Positions 11,668-59,241 of a stretch of 64,000 bases of DNA are shown here, piece by piece. The notes under the pieces are model-generated. The model was not told where the DNA came from, searched no databases, and saw only the letters and a list, made by a program, of their open reading frames with translations. The DNA is from Pseudomonas lundensis (GTDB lineage Bacteria > Pseudomonadota > Gammaproteobacteria > Pseudomonadales > Pseudomonadaceae), in the NCBI RefSeq assembly GCF_002269125.1, contig NZ_NQKI01000011.1:1-64000 (forward strand), written 5' to 3'. A program made the position numbers and the translations under genes. The stretch's first letter is position 1; each line of letters starts with the position of its first letter.

Positions 11668-12009
11668 ATGAGCCGCCCACAATTGCTTGATTCGGCGCTG
11701 TACGCGCTGCTGCACAAGGACGATATCGCCGGTTTCAATCAAGAACGCCCGCAAGGGCCCATTGATATGCGCGGCGGGGATTTTCGAGGGCTGGATTTGC
11801 GTCAGTTGAATGCGCAGGACGTGGACTTCACCGATGGTTACTTTCGCTCTGCGGACCTTCGGGGGCTCGACCTGCGCACAGCGTGCATTGAAGGTGCCAG
11901 CCTGGCCCATGCTCAGATCTCAGGGGCTTACTTCCCTGTTGAATTGACGGCGGATGAGATTTTGATGTCGGTCAACTTCGGCACTCGACTGCGTTACCGC
12001 ACAAAGTAG
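11668..12009 (+). CDS. Pentapeptide-repeat protein
   Basis: A 113-residue soluble protein with a central run of A(D/N)LxG-type pentapeptide units (around 35-90: GGDFRGLDLRQLNAQDVDF and SADLRGLDLRTACIEGASL), which fold as a right-handed quadrilateral beta helix. Function is unknown. It is much shorter than gyrase-protecting Qnr/MfpA proteins, so I do not assign DNA-mimic activity. AGGAG precedes the ATG. It has its own promoter candidate and stands alone between neighbours. Confidence 0.8.
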   Translation: MSRPQLLDSALYALLHKDDIAGFNQERPQGPIDMRGGDFRGLDLRQLNAQDVDFTDGYFRSADLRGLDLRTACIEGASLAHAQISGAYFPVELTADEILMSVNFGTRLRYRTK

Positions 12010-12258: not shown

Positions 12259-12531
12259 ATGAACGATGAACTCCAGCATTTGAGAAATCTTGGAAAGACG
12301 TCGGCGCAATGGCTGCACGCTGTGGGTATTCATAACCTTTCGGACTTGAAACGGCTTGGCGCAGCTGATGCTTATCGTGCGGTGAAAGCCCGAGGGTTCA
12401 GAGCGTCCAAAGTCTTGCTCTATGCAATTGAGGGTGCCTTGCTGGATGTCCACTGGAACGATGTTCCCGCAGAGCGTAAAGAAGCACTCAACAAACAAGT
12501 TGAGAGCGCGTTGACGGCACGAAAAGTTTGA
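12259..12531 (+). CDS. TfoX/Sxy C-terminal domain protein
   Basis: A 90-residue protein matching only the C-terminal (helix-hairpin-helix-like) half of TfoX/Sxy, seen in LRNLGKTSAQWLHAVGIHNL and the following helices. Full TfoX regulates competence in Haemophilus and Vibrio. Stand-alone C-terminal domains are common in Pseudomonas and their role is unknown. I take the ATG at 12259 because AAGGAGG is at 12248-12254; the in-frame TTG just before it is too close to that site. Confidence 0.75.
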   Translation: MNDELQHLRNLGKTSAQWLHAVGIHNLSDLKRLGAADAYRAVKARGFRASKVLLYAIEGALLDVHWNDVPAERKEALNKQVESALTARKV

Positions 12532-12568
12532 AACTTTGCCCTGCTCTTAAAAAAGCGACAAACTGCTG

Positions 12569-12597
12569 TTGACTCGATAATGAGAATTGTTATTATT
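12569..12597 (+). promoter_or_regulatory. prrF promoter with Fur box
   Basis: TTGACT (12569-12574) and TATTAT (12591-12596) form a sigma-70 promoter. A Fur box overlaps it: GATAATGAGAATTGTTATT at 12576-12594 matches 15 of 19 bases of the consensus. Iron-loaded Fur would block the polymerase, so the sRNA should be made only under iron starvation. Confidence 0.85.
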
Positions 12598-12602
12598 ACA
12601 CC

Positions 12603-12717
12603 ATCTGGTCGCGAGGCCAGACGATCTTCTGAAAGGCCCTTGGTTCGGACTCTCAGAAAATCTCCTCATCAGGCTAATCACGGTTATTTGACCCGGCTTT
12701 TGCCGGGTCTTTTTTTT
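12603..12717 (+). ncRNA. prrF: PrrF iron-responsive small RNA
   Basis: PrrF RNAs are the Pseudomonas counterparts of RyhB: Hfq-binding RNAs that repress mRNAs for iron-using proteins when iron is low. The diagnostic antisense core TCTCCTCATCAGGCTAATCA is at 12661-12680, preceded by a 5' hairpin starting CTGGTCGCGAGGCCAG and followed by an intrinsic terminator. The transcript is about 115 nt. Only one copy is present here; P. aeruginosa has two in tandem beside phu (established knowledge). A second copy may lie elsewhere in this genome. The start is inferred from the promoter. Confidence 0.92.
12690..12717 (+). terminator. prrF intrinsic terminator
   Basis: GACCCGGC and GCCGGGTC form an 8-bp stem with a TTTT loop, followed by eight T bases. 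It ends the sRNA about 40 bases before the convergent phuV stop. Confidence 0.93.
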
Positions 12718-12756
12718 GCCTGCACAAAAGCGTCGGGCCTTTCAAAAGTCAGGAAT

Positions 12757-13524
12757 TCAACGCGCAATGATCAGCGGATGCCCCAGCTCAGGGTGCTGGT
12801 GTACCAATACCTCAAGCCCGAATACCGCCTGGAGCAACGCAGGCTGCAACACTGCCTGCGGACAATCCAGCGCACGCGGCCGACCGTTTTCCAGCAGTAA
12901 CAATCGGTCGCAATAGCGCGCGGCCAGATTAAGGTCATGCAGAATGATCAAGACCGCGGCGCCCCTGTCTGCGAACGCCCGGATAGCCTTTAACGTGGTG
13001 TGCTGATGCAACGGGTCCAGCATGGAGGTCGGCTCATCCAGCAACAGTGTTTGCCCACCCTGCCCCGGCCATAATTGCGCCAGCACGCGGGCAAGGTGGA
13101 CACGCTGACGCTCACCGCCCGATAACGCGAGGTAACTGCGACCTGCCAGGTGTTCAACATCCGCTGCGTGCAATGCCTCCTGAACAATTTCGGCATCGCG
13201 GGTTCGGCCTGTCTGATGAGGCAAGCGCCCCATGCCGACGACGTCCTCGACGCGGAACGCAAAATCAAGCGTTGACGTTTGTGGCAATACGGCCAGCCGT
13301 TGAGCGCGCTCCACGCCCTTCCATTGACTCAGCGGGCGCTGATCGAGCCAGACGTCGCCTTCGGTAGGCGCCAACTCTGCACACAAACCCGCCAATAAGG
13401 TGCTCTTACCTGCACCATTAGGCCCCAGCACACCGAGAACCTCGCCAGGGCGGACCTCAAGCGTAATACCCGACAACACGACTTTTTGCCCACGACGGAT
13501 CTGCAGATTTTCCGCTCGCAACAT
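12757..13524 (-). CDS. phuV: Haemin ABC transporter ATP-binding protein
   Basis: PhuV (HmuV) powers haem import across the inner membrane. Walker [10 protein letters not shown] is at 34-42, the ABC signature LSGGERQ at 134-140 and Walker B LLLDEP at 160-165, followed by an H-loop ([10 protein letters not shown]). Length (255) is typical of haem-type FecE-like ATPases. It overlaps the phuU stop by one base and is the last gene of phuT-phuU-phuV. The haem assignment rests on the family and on synteny with prrF; siderophore or B12 transporters are close relatives. Confidence 0.9.
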
Positions 13525-14561
13525 CAGTGGCGGCCTCGCAGCAGTAAATACAGGAAGAACGGAGCCCCCAGAAAGGCCGTCACAATACCGATGGGCAGCT
13601 CAGCGGGGGCAAGTGCCAAACGCGCAATCAGATCAGCAAACAGCAGTAAACTTGCCCCTGCCAAGACTGACGCGGGCAGTAAAACGCGATGATCTGGCCC
13701 CGCCAACAGCCGTACCAGATGCGGCACCACCAACCCTATAAAGCCAATCATCCCCGCCGCCGCTACAGCCGCACCGACGCCCAAAGCAGTACAAAACACC
13801 AGTTCACGCTTCAGACCCTCAACATTAACTCCCAAGTGATTGGCTTCCGATTCGCCCAGCAACAACGCATTCAACGCCGTTGCACGGCGTGGCAGCCACA
13901 GCGCAACACCGACAGTGACCAGCAGCAGTGGCCACAACCGTGCATAGCTGGCGCCATTTAAACTGCCCAGATTCCAGAACGTCAGCGTACGAAGCGTCGC
14001 GTCATCCGCCAGATAAGTAAAAAGCCCTACTGCGGAACCCGATAACGCCGTCAGTGCGATCCCCGCCAGCAACATCACGGCCACTTGGGTTTGGCCATTT
14101 TTCCGTCCTAGCCGGTAAACCAGCGCAGTCACTCCCAAGCCCCCCAAAAACGCACAGAGCGACAACAAGTACGGCCCGATAAAGTCCGGCAAACCACCCA
14201 ACGCAGCGCCGCCCACGATGGCAATTGCCGCGCCCAAGGCTGCACCGCTGGAGACACCGACCAGCCCGGGATCGGCCAACGGGTTGCGGAACAAGCCCTG
14301 CATTGCAACACCCGACAGCGCCAGCACACCACCCACTGCCAACCCCAGCAAGGTCCGCGGCAAACGGATCTGCCCCAGAATCAATTCCGCCTGTTCCAGT
14401 CCTTCGCCCTGCACAGGCAGCCCCATCAACCGCAAGGCAGCGCGCAATGTATCGAACAGAGGCAAACTCACCGGCCCAAGCGCCAGCGACAACCATGTTG
14501 CCAGCAGGCACAAGAGGCCCAGGCTCATAAACAAAGCACGGGGTTTTACCAGCGTTTTCAT
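13524..14561 (-). CDS. phuU: Haemin ABC transporter permease
   Basis: A 345-residue FecCD/BtuC-type permease with roughly ten membrane helices. It forms the homodimeric channel through which periplasmic haem, delivered by PhuT, crosses the inner membrane. The [17 protein letters not shown] region near residue 280 is typical of the family. The start overlaps the phuT 3' end by four bases and the end overlaps phuV, so the three genes are translationally linked. Confidence 0.9.
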
Positions 14562-15433
14562 TGAGTGCCCGCAGCCTCGGGGTAGAACTCAGCCGTGAGC
14601 TGCTTGAGACGCTCCGGCAACCGTGGTCCCAGCCCGCCAACCAGCAGGGTCGGGTCCACTTCATAGACCTGACCTGCTTTGACTGCACGAATCGATGCCA
14701 GCACCGGGTTTTCTTTCAACAGTGCGGCGCGGGCGGCCTCACCGCTCAGGCTGCGATCAGCAAATACCAGAACCTGCGGGTTCAAGCCCGCCAATGCCTC
14801 AACCGAAAACGGTTTGTAGCCCGAATGTGTGGCAAGATTTCGTCCGCCGGCCTGCTGGATCAGCCAGTCCGCAGCCGTTTCTTTACCCGCAATCATCGGC
14901 TTGCCACCCGCATGCCCCAGTAACAAAAGAACGCCCGGCACCTTGTGCGTTGCTTGTATTTGCTTGACCTGAACACGCTGGCGATCCATTTGCTGCTTAA
15001 AACGGTCAAAAACGCCCTTGGCGTTCACGTCATCCCCAAGTAACTGCCCTAAATGCAAAAGCGTCGCCTGCAGCGTCGCCAGATCAGCCTGTGCCGAGAA
15101 CAGTTCAACCGGCACTCCAGCCCCCTGAATCTGCTTTAAGACCTCCGCTGGCCCCATCTCTTGCGTACCAATCAACACATCAGGCTTGAGGCTCAAGATG
15201 CCCTCGGCCGAGAGTTGACGCTGATAGCCGATACTGGGCAGGGATTTAAGTGATTCAGGATGTTGGCTAGTGGTATCGACCCCAACCAATTTAGACTCCG
15301 CCCCCAGCGCACTGACCCATTCAGAGAGCGCCCCTCCGGCACTGACCCAACGTTGTGGCAATTCGGCAGCCGAGCTGACGTGACTGACCAAAAGGCCCGC
15401 AAAGAGCGTAATCAGGCGGAGTCTCAAGCGCAT
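14558..15433 (-). CDS. phuT: Haemin ABC transporter periplasmic binding protein
   Basis: A 291-residue class III binding protein (helical backbone, BtuF/PhuT/ShuT type) that carries haem to PhuUV. A cleavable signal peptide (basic MRLRLR, hydrophobic core, cleavage near SSA-AEL) precedes the mature domain. I use the ATG encoding MRLRLR, because the 20 codons before it do not look like a signal peptide and AAGGAA lies about nine bases upstream of this ATG. The outer-membrane receptor and cytoplasmic haem chaperone (phuR, phuS) that often accompany these genes are absent. Confidence 0.9.
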   Translation of the reverse strand: MRLRLRLITLFAGLLVSHVSSAAELPQRWVSAGGALSEWVSALGAESKLVGVDTTSQHPESLKSLPSIGYQRQLSAEGILSLKPDVLIGTQEMGPAEVLKQIQGAGVPVELFSAQADLATLQATLLHLGQLLGDDVNAKGVFDRFKQQMDRQRVQVKQIQATHKVPGVLLLLGHAGGKPMIAGKETAADWLIQQAGGRNLATHSGYKPFSVEALAGLNPQVLVFADRSLSGEAARAALLKENPVLASIRAVKAGQVYEVDPTLLVGGLGPRLPERLKQLTAEFYPEAAGTQ

Positions 15434-15520
15434 ACAGAGGCGTTCCTTAGTAAGTGGGTCGGCGGGAACCGTAACATCCAGCACCGTGTACACAGCGCAT
15501 CGCGGAGCAGCCAGCTATTT

Positions 15521-15539
15521 GATAATTGTTTGCATTTGC
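15521..15539 (-). promoter_or_regulatory. Possible Fur box upstream of phuT
   Basis: GATAATTGTTTGCATTTGC matches 12 of 19 Fur-consensus positions, including both outer GATAAT and CATT parts. It lies about 90 bases upstream of phuT in the region shared with the divergent Rieske gene. Iron control of haem uptake makes it plausible, but the match is modest. Confidence 0.4.
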
Positions 15540-24468: not shown

Positions 24469-24834
24469 GTACAAGAACAATAAGAATCACAGCAACACAC
24501 AATAAAAATAAGACGTATCGGCTCACGCATAACAAAAACAACACGGCGGAGGCGCAGCTAACTGATTCTTTTGGAGAGGTGTTGTCATTGGGGCTTGCCC
24601 CACGACTAGGCAGAGAACAACAAAAACTGCACTTAAAGCAGAGCCTGAACTAGTTGGATCACTGATCACATCAACACAGCGACCAAAGCAATCCGTTTGC
24701 TCTTATCTCCCGATTGGGAGGGTTACACCGGCAAAACCGGGTAACCAGGGCGATTAACAAAAACAAGAAGCCCGCAACCAATAATAAAAATAGAGCACGC
24801 AACTAATTCTGGGGGAGCTTCGGCTCCCCTTGTG
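24469..24834 (+). ncRNA. crcZ: CrcZ regulatory RNA
   Basis: CrcZ sequesters the Hfq-Crc repressor complex through several A-rich motifs and so relieves catabolite repression. Between cbrB and pcnB, its usual place, the sequence carries at least six A-rich motifs of the AAnAAnAA kind: near 24473 (AACAATAAGAA), 24500 (CAATAAAAATAA), 24531 (AACAAAAACAAC), 24616 (AACAACAAAAAC), 24754 (AACAAAAACAAG) and 24778 (CAATAATAAAAAT). It ends at a GGGGAGC hairpin. No convincing protein frame is present. Both ends are inferred; the length, about 366 nt, is a little under the roughly 400 nt known elsewhere. Confidence 0.9.
24812..24829 (+). terminator. crcZ 3' hairpin
   Basis: GGGGAGC and GCTCCCC enclose a TTCG tetraloop, a very stable stem. 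The tail TTGTGGTT is only partly T-rich, but the place and stability fit the crcZ terminator. Confidence 0.7.
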
Positions 24835-24947
24835 GTTCCTGCGATTCAATAAAATCCTTTAACCTCTCTAGCCCGGTATTCTTGCGCAGGTTCAGAGCGC
24901 CATGGGCAATCGACAGGTCAAGCGTCCTACACCATCCCCTGACTAAA

Positions 24948-40319: not shown

Positions 40320-40589
40320 TTAGCGACGCAGACCCAGGCGAGCGATCAGCGCAGCGTAACGGCTGATGTCTTTGCCTTTCAGGTAGTCCAGCAGCTTACG
40401 ACGCTGGTTTACCATGCGGATCAGACCACGACGGGAGTGGTGATCTTTACCGTTGGCCTTGAAGTGACCCTGCAGCGTGTTGATGTTGAAGGTCAGCAGT
40501 GCAACTTGCACTTCTGGAGAACCTGTATCACCTGGAGCACGCTGGTAGTCAGCTACGATTTCTGCTTTGTGTTCAACTGTAAGTGCCAT
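40320..40589 (-). CDS. rpsO: 30S ribosomal protein S15
   Basis: S15 is a primary 16S rRNA-binding protein of the platform and also represses its own mRNA in E. coli. The 89 residues match the family throughout: [43 protein letters not shown] and the C-terminal LIARLGLRR. It lies between truB and pnp. The 155-base leader contains short stems (for example GAGGACAAATCCTC) that might serve autocontrol. Confidence 0.98.
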
Positions 40590-40744
40590 GTGGCTTTCCT
40601 TTCTTCAGGGGTCTGTCTGCAAGCAAACAGATCCAATAGGCCGAGGACAAATCCTCGTATTTAAATGTGAGATGTGACCGTGCCTAATAACAGCCACCCT
40701 CGTTCCAGTCCTCGCAGGCAATAGCCGGCTTGGCCTGGCTCCGG

Positions 40745-58015: not shown

Positions 58016-59152
58016 TTAGCGGCGCTTGGCCATCTCGTTGATGAAACGGTCGAACAGCGGTGCTACGTCGTTCGGGCCCGGGCTCGCTTCAGGGTGACCC
58101 TGGAAGCTGAATGCGCTCTTGTCGGTCAGCTCAATACCCTGCAGCGTGCCATCAAAAAGCGACTTGTGAATCGCACGCACGTTGGCAGGCAAAGTGGCTT
58201 CATCCACCGCAAAACCGTGGTTCTGACTGGTGATCATCACAACACCCGTATCCAGATCCTGAACCGGGTGGTTGGCGCCATGGTGACCATGACCCATTTT
58301 CACGGTCTTGGCACCGGAGGCCAACGCCAGCAGCTGATGACCCAGGCAGATACCGAAAACCGGAATCTCGGTGGTCAGCACCTCTTGAATGGCCTTGATT
58401 GCATAGTCACAAGGCTCTGGATCGCCTGGGCCGTTGGACAGGAACACCCCATCCGGATTCAACGCCAGAACATCGCTGGCCGGGGTCTGAGCGGGCACGA
58501 CCGTCACGCGGCAACCGCGCTCCACCAGCATGCGCAGGATGTTCCACTTCACGCCATAGTCGTAGGCAACGACGTGGTAAGGAAGCTCAGAGGCATCCAG
58601 GGTCGGGTGGCTGTCGGTCGCAAGATTCCAGACGCTGGAGCGCCACTCGTAGGCCTTCTCGGTGCTGACGACTTTCGCCAGGTCCATGCCCTTCAGGCCC
58701 GGGAAACCTCGTGCTGCTGCAATGGCAGCTTCGTCCGAAATATTGTCACCCGCCATGATGCAACCGTTCTGCGAGCCTTTCTCACGCAGAATACGGGTCA
58801 GGCGACGTGTATCAATGCCTGCAATCGCCACAACGTTGTTGGCTTTCAGGTAATCCGACAACGACATCGTGTTGCGCCAGTTGCTAGCAACCAAAGGCAA
58901 ATCACGAATAACCAGACCTGCGGACCAGACACGATCAGACTCGGCATCCTCCGGTGTAGTACCGGTATTGCCTACATGCGGGTAAGTCAGGGTAACAATT
59001 TGCTGAGCGTAGGAAGGATCGGTAAGGATTTCCTGATAGCCGGTCATTGCGGTGTTAAAAACGACCTCACCAACGGTTTGACCGTCAGCTCCAATGGCTT
59101 CGCCGCGAAAAATGCTGCCATCAGCAAGGGCGAGTATGGCTTGCTTAGTCAA
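58016..59152 (-). CDS. carA: Carbamoyl-phosphate synthase small subunit
   Basis: CarA is the glutamine amidotransferase subunit. The class I GATase domain (about 190-375) has the nucleophile in [12 protein letters not shown] (about Cys269) and the HPE end of the catalytic triad (about 353-355). The start is a TTG with GGGAGG six bases upstream, and 378 residues is normal. The TTG overlaps the stop of a 30-codon leader frame (TTGA). A terminator-like hairpin stands in the leader. Confidence 0.96.
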
Positions 59153-59241
59153 GAAGACCTCCCGTAAATAAAACCTGAAAGGGCGATCGCAGGTTGTAAA
59201 AAAGCGGAGTGACGTATGGACACGTCACCCCGCTTTTTCAT
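59149..59241 (-). other. Leader reading frame overlapping the carA start
   Basis: A 30-codon frame begins at the ATG in front of the carA leader hairpin, runs through the whole hairpin and its T-run (read as TTT TTA), and stops in TGA overlapping the carA TTG. Translation of it would open the hairpin and could couple to carA. No good ribosome site is visible before the ATG. Confidence 0.35.
59199..59238 (-). terminator. Attenuator-like terminator in the carA leader
   Basis: AAAAAGCGG with GTGACGT pairs to ACGTCAC with CCGCTTTTT, interrupted by one mismatch. On the minus strand it is followed by six T bases, about 46 bases before carA. It has the form of an intrinsic terminator placed between promoter and gene, as in pyrimidine attenuation. 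Confidence 0.7.

Follow-up and report, generated by a model that had tools for sequence, protein, structure and literature searches.

The Fur-repressed RNA RyhB acts in iron sparing in Escherichia coli and counts sodB among its targets. In pseudomonads, the PrrF RNAs have been presented as the analogue of RyhB (PMC2851614, PMC4211561), to which they bear no sequence homology according to the accessible text of the latter paper (PMC4211561). A further RNA of Pseudomonas aeruginosa, PrrH, is described in available passages as the product of read-through of prrF1 into prrF2 (PMC2851614), and its control by haem is reported to be lost in strain PAO1 when PhuS is absent (PMC7948967). Pseudomonads other than P. 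aeruginosa are said in the accessible portions of two papers to have kept two distal prrF copies (PMC2851614, PMC4211561), and for Pseudomonas fluorescens Pf0-1, in which the copies are separate and divergent, the available text reports a decrease of both PrrF RNAs upon addition of iron (PMC13104616).

The stretch of Pseudomonas lundensis DNA analyzed here, called the window in the following, is 64 kb long and carries a prrF gene at positions 12569-12717 on the plus strand. With a probability of about 0.93, we read this gene as the PrrF orthologue of a site which we call locus A, encoding a Fur-repressed, iron-sparing RNA of approximately 115 nt that shares its work with a copy at another site, locus B, and that gives rise to no PrrH. 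The assignment to the Rfam family RF00444 by cmscan reaches 148.4 bits compared to a gathering score of 90 (E 7.2e-27), and the score above the cut-off is obtained over the whole model (positions 1-150 of 150). The gene starts with a sigma-70-like promoter, TTGACT-16-TATTAT, at 12569-12596 on the plus strand, which agrees with the consensus at 10 of 12 positions and is the sole promoter of this type found in 12400-12900, where 0.1 are expected by chance on average. Within this promoter lies a predicted Fur box, GATAATGAGAATTGTTATT, at 12576-12594 on the same strand, and it matches 15 of the 19 positions of the sequence used for scoring, GATAATGATAATCATTATC, which we take to be the Fur-box consensus. 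This is the top-scoring site of the window, and 40 copies of the window generated by a first-order Markov model reach at most 14; since the window holds no site with three or fewer mismatches, the box is to be called good, not near-perfect. The predicted RNA spans 12603-12717 on the plus strand, its start being placed from the promoter and the family, and it folds with a z-score of -2.74 (3 of 200 shuffles were equal or better). It contains the conserved core that is predicted to pair with target mRNAs as an exact 20-nt match at 12661-12680, a segment written in upper case (at least 90% conserved) in the consensus built from an alignment of 125 copies, and it closes with an intrinsic terminator, recovered by a terminator scan, with an 8-bp stem at 12690-12709 followed by T8 and ending at 12717, the only terminator-like site on the plus strand in 12400-12900. 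Apart from 12661-12680 the 64 kb contain no core at up to three mismatches (chance mean 0.01). The main elements of the gene, the core and the Fur box, exceed chance expectation, and all the elements that the original prediction had described, i.e., the core, the 15/19 Fur box over the promoter and the intrinsic terminator, are present, as is its single PrrF at the locus. Using a motif which we presume to be that of AlgR, no site with two or fewer mismatches was found upstream of prrF in 12400-12600; in the whole window 76 such sites occur versus 55.6 expected. Elsewhere the window contains two known Pseudomonas small RNAs, CrcZ at 24471-24865 (332.3 bits) and P31 at 59152-59233 (106.5 bits), and a ribosomal S15 leader at 40533-40635 on the minus strand (50.6 bits), all scoring over their cut-offs.

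A further property of the family is a core complementary to iron-protein mRNAs, and such complementarity was found for the sodB leader and for one of four ferritin-family leaders. Among 277 candidate start regions, taken from selected stretches of the P. lundensis genome rather than from the whole of it and ranked by ungapped complementarity to the core, the start region of sodB (L211) takes the first place with a score of 29, which is reached by 18 of 5978 random 80-nt pieces of the window; the pairing spans the Shine-Dalgarno sequence and stops 6 nt before the ATG. A ferritin-like gene at 1504-2031 on the minus strand of its stretch (L215, on contig C24 of the same genome; PF00210, 100.3 bits) scores 26, a value reached by 78 of the 5978 pieces, with an unbroken run of 10 pairs over the Shine-Dalgarno sequence. 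This gene is a candidate for BrnD; it matches the bacterioferritin and the Dps models, both below their cut-offs, as the published target BrnD may do too. The other three of the four ferritin-family genes score only 12-20 at their in-frame starts, so pairing with PrrF is not general to iron-storage genes. In a search of all starts of the genome, the sodB match and the ferritin-like one would both not exceed chance; they count because genes of these kinds had been named beforehand as targets, and the predicted pairing agrees with what has been published on the action of PrrF towards sodB and brnD. When the whole RNA was used for a ranking with RNAduplex, sodB did not stand out (35th of 130); this ranking was dominated by long looped duplexes and uninformative, and the ungapped core score was used in its place. 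In the mechanism that we propose, Fur-Fe(II) would occupy the prrF promoter of P. lundensis when iron is plentiful, and when iron is scarce the RNA of approximately 115 nt would be transcribed and end at its own terminator. The core, presumably with the help of Hfq, would then pair with mRNAs that encode dispensable iron proteins, at their ribosome-binding sites, and thereby lower translation and stability of sodB and ferritin-like mRNAs, a task that the copy at locus A would share with its distant sibling at locus B.

The gene lies next to a haem transporter operon. Upstream lie two genes that serve as synteny markers, both on the plus strand, encoding a pentapeptide-repeat protein (11668-12009; PF00805, 25.8 bits, cut-off 20.2) and a protein with a TfoX C-terminal domain (12259-12531; PF04994, 106.7 bits). 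Downstream, on the minus strand, follow hmuV (also phuV) for the ATPase of a haem ABC transporter at 12757-13524 (NF010068, 342.7 bits, cut-off 261), hmuU/phuU for a FecCD-type permease at 13524-14561 (PF01032, 293.1 bits) and hmuT/phuT for a periplasmic binding protein at 14558-15493 (PF01497, 116.1 bits). Of these three only hmuV passes a haem-specific model; for hmuU and hmuT no NCBIfam model was over its cut-off, and their probable role in haem transport is read from the operon context. The adjacent haem transporter gene was thus named correctly in the original prediction, and its orientation was not: prrF and hmuV had been described as back to back, and the 3′ end of hmuV faces the prrF terminator at a distance of approximately 40 nt, which makes the arrangement tail to tail. 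In P. aeruginosa PA7 (L096), the same locus reads pentapeptide-tfoX-[cbpA]-prrF-[phuW]-hmuVU, with phuS at the operon's distant 5′ end; the P. lundensis locus leaves no space for cbpA or phuW. The P. lundensis genome contains two haem oxygenase-family genes. Upstream of hmuT, at 15521-15539 on the minus strand, a Fur-like box is predicted, GCAAATGCAAACAATTATC, which matches 13 of 19 positions and is unexceptional by score, as 26 sites of the window reach 12 or more. A site of near-identical sequence, scoring 12-14 of 19, is found upstream of hmuT in all 14 relatives examined, and this conservation suggests that the haem transporter may be iron-regulated together with prrF.

The facing ends give rise to a different explanation of the locus, by which the transcript of hmuTUV enters prrF as antisense, or read-through from prrF runs antisense to hmuV, so that haem uptake and iron sparing are coupled. 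Some features of the locus would allow this. In 15 loci, chosen for an hmuV that directly faces prrF, the gap between both genes is approximately 21-72 nt, and a terminator-like site on the plus strand occurs in 15 of 15, whereas on the minus strand none is found from the hmuV stop through prrF in 14 of the 15, the remaining one (L191) having such a site in the gap; moreover, the box kept upstream of hmuT in all 14 relatives would let both transcripts rise together. However, Rho could terminate the hmuV transcript, a promoter search of 12400-12900 gave none on the minus strand, and in the window itself a weaker terminator-like site on the minus strand follows just past prrF at 12504-12487 (0.7 terminator-like sites are expected by chance). 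Adjacency is furthermore not obligatory, as 12 of 52 locus-A copies have no HmuV match in the stretch examined, and overlap of transcripts arranged tail to tail is common in bacteria and needs no function. The open-access literature search returned no paper containing both prrF and hmuV, and the only mention of antisense transcription at prrF that it yielded is an orphan 5′ end antisense to prrF2, recorded once for Pseudomonas syringae DC3000 in Table 4 of PMC3247240; the accessible part of that paper names only the flanking genes, and the end may belong to the other prrF locus. The available portions of PMC7857532, PMC3377617, PMC3460626, PMC10597452 and PMC6298776 hold nothing on a single-copy locus or on antisense transcription there. 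Taken together, we judge this coupling improbable, and slightly less probable again is its specific form, in which overlapping transcription of hmuTUV and prrF would make an antisense RNA with a tuning effect on PrrF (or hmuV) during haem uptake. If it were true, it would provide a link between haem and iron without PrrH and PhuS, and many species of the genus could make use of it. We continue with the reading of an iron-controlled PrrF gene that ends at its own terminator.

The original prediction had seen only one copy, which stands for the locus and is incomplete for the genome. The whole-genome search for a second PrrF that it had proposed detected one on a separate contig (C18, 68670-68819) with 142.7 bits, located between genes for an Lrp/AsnC-type regulator and an M14 carboxypeptidase, the site here called locus B. 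A third match on contig C20 (23.9 bits, E 0.16) lies far below the cut-off, has no core at up to four substitutions and was set aside as chance; the assembly has a rated completeness of 100% and a contamination of 2.8%. A read-through of the PrrH type, which had been predicted to be precluded here, is indeed so, with one core in the window and the other copy on another contig. Moreover, no gene with a HemS domain (PhuS) was matched in the P. lundensis genome, in a search whose E. coli control was positive. P. lundensis therefore lacks both the two tandem prrF genes and the PhuS match that belong to PrrH; a PrrH of the P. aeruginosa type cannot form at this locus, and its haem control is likewise inapplicable.

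PrrF was found in 298 of 298 genomes of the genus and in 243 of 248 genomes of the family (235 of 235 of the near-complete ones). The distribution over the loci was determined in a sample of 51 genomes, comprising P. lundensis itself and every sixth of the genus genomes, by calling loci from neighboring genes. All 51 possess the copy at locus A; one A and one B copy are present in 36, A only in nine, including an assembly of 1150 contigs (G205), A together with a copy lacking any marker gene in five, and two tandem A copies in a single genome (G247). Three of the five marker-less copies fall by sequence into the clade of the B copies. The marker-less copies of G001 and G163 (L207, L209) cluster with the second copy of G308 (L120), a genome of another genus, and these three, which all lack marker genes nearby and stand apart from loci A and B, may represent a possible third home of prrF. 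A single copy beside the haem transporter with a distant sibling is the usual and already published state, and in this respect P. lundensis is ordinary.

In a tree with midpoint root, the B copies form one clade (support 0.97) that contains no A copy. The mean identity between A and B copies within a genome is 0.735 (38 pairs), nearly the same as the 0.728 between genomes, and the mean identities among A copies and among B copies are 0.816 and 0.850. Because A and B copies of one genome resemble each other no more than those of different genomes, and because the B clade is free of A copies, both look like old paralogues without mutual homogenization, as far as the compared sequences tell. In P. 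lundensis itself, A and B are 69% identical over the aligned stretch from promoter to terminator; for the Pf0-1 RNAs 80% is given in the accessible text of PMC13104616, for a stretch that differs from the one compared here. Regarding the fold, pairing in helix 1 of clade A is kept through two-sided changes in four of six pairs, a figure that counts cells and not events and that uses a structure derived from the same alignment. RNAalifold, applied to the 78 distinct rows of clade A, returned a consensus without the terminator stem; the consensus of clade B includes it.

The single copy at locus A could also be thought of as the remnant of a tandem pair like that of P. aeruginosa, which would be the ancestral state and of which one member was recently lost. 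Tandem copies occupy the same locus in at least 11 genomes of two genera, and some of them have their partner in the tree in a different genome (G463 with G041), so that some tandem pairs predate a single species. However, the tandem pattern is seen in only 2 of 398 genomes of the genus (a lower bound, obtained with exact 13-mers and limited spacing), both tandem copies are mutually nearest in the tree for G470, G438 and G467, which suggests repeated local duplication, and the window holds no second core. We consider a recent loss very improbable and retain the reading of a single A copy with an old paralogue at locus B.

Tandem arrays were further surveyed in one genome per species, again with exact 13-mers and limited spacing and hence as a lower bound. 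Of nine stretches returned, six are true PrrF pairs, belonging to Pseudomonas sp. 30_B, a Pseudomonas mendocina strain, Pseudomonas khazarica, Pseudomonas yangonensis, P. aeruginosa PA7 and Pseudomonas segetis; the matches in Reinekea, 'Bacillus sp. EAC' and a Phycisphaerae MAG (L097, L099, L100) contained no PrrF by cmscan and were dismissed as repeats or chance, the 13-mer match in L100 lying within a repeated coding stretch. Tandem prrF in a mendocina and a denitrificans strain is already named in the available text of PMC4211561. Larger arrays exist in a genus other than that of the window. The genome G446, a single-contig assembly without HemS match, has four prrF genes in a row with a spacing of 207-208 nt (L101, 3145-3915) that directly face hmuV; copies 2-4 are 94-97% identical to each other and copy 1 is 78-82% identical to them. 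In G462, three prrF genes with a spacing of 221-222 nt (L102, 2240-2833) face phuW. Every copy in both arrays scores above the family cut-off, and none of the open-access papers listed in the literature search indicates arrays of three or four prrF genes.

Tandem prrF pairs with HemS alongside were observed in five stretches (L103, L104, L105, L106, L111) from the genus of the window and outside P. aeruginosa. A HemS score above the cut-off is reached in 9 of 11 tandem genomes versus 9 of 54 others (Fisher p = 6e-5), and HemS stands beside prrF, with adjacency read by eye from the coordinates, in 9 of the 11 versus 5 of the 54 (Fisher p = 3e-6); these p values carry little weight, as the 11 genomes (at least 11 exist) were hand-picked among the matches listed and are related members of two genera, the 54 include four hand-picked ones (G131, G228, G063, G308), many genomes of genus g9 with two PrrF matches are left out, and a sub-threshold HemS hit in G031 is uncounted. 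Within the sample of 51 genomes only, HemS is present in the one tandem genome and in 6 of the 50 others. Tandem copies without HemS occur in G446 and G305, and HemS lies beside a single prrF in G063, G228, G265, G283 and G308. According to the accessible text of PMC7948967, prrF duplication and phuS occur in conjunction and in P. aeruginosa alone; that statement, as it stands there, is too strict, because tandem copies with HemS occur outside P. aeruginosa and exceptions exist in both directions, yet a tendency is visible in the genomes compared.

Compared to the known systems, the P. lundensis gene agrees with PrrF1 and PrrF2 of P. aeruginosa in Rfam family, core, terminator, length and, as in PA7, the place beside the haem uptake operon. 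It differs in that P. aeruginosa has two copies in tandem and P. lundensis one, with neither cbpA nor phuW at the locus and no PhuS match. An RNA like PrrH would start at the same promoter, but it needs the two tandem copies that are absent in P. lundensis. This species therefore offers a clean comparison, with PrrF present and the tandem pair, a PhuS match and PrrH missing, in which haem control of the PrrF regulon could be studied apart from those parts; the arrays of tandem copies and the haem operon converging on prrF are of modest side interest. With the pairs of P. fluorescens and other pseudomonads outside P. aeruginosa, P. lundensis shares the copy at locus A and the usually distal, divergent sibling, with no difference beyond sequence drift found. 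The locus holds an ordinary PrrF that is well conserved and arranged in the usual way.
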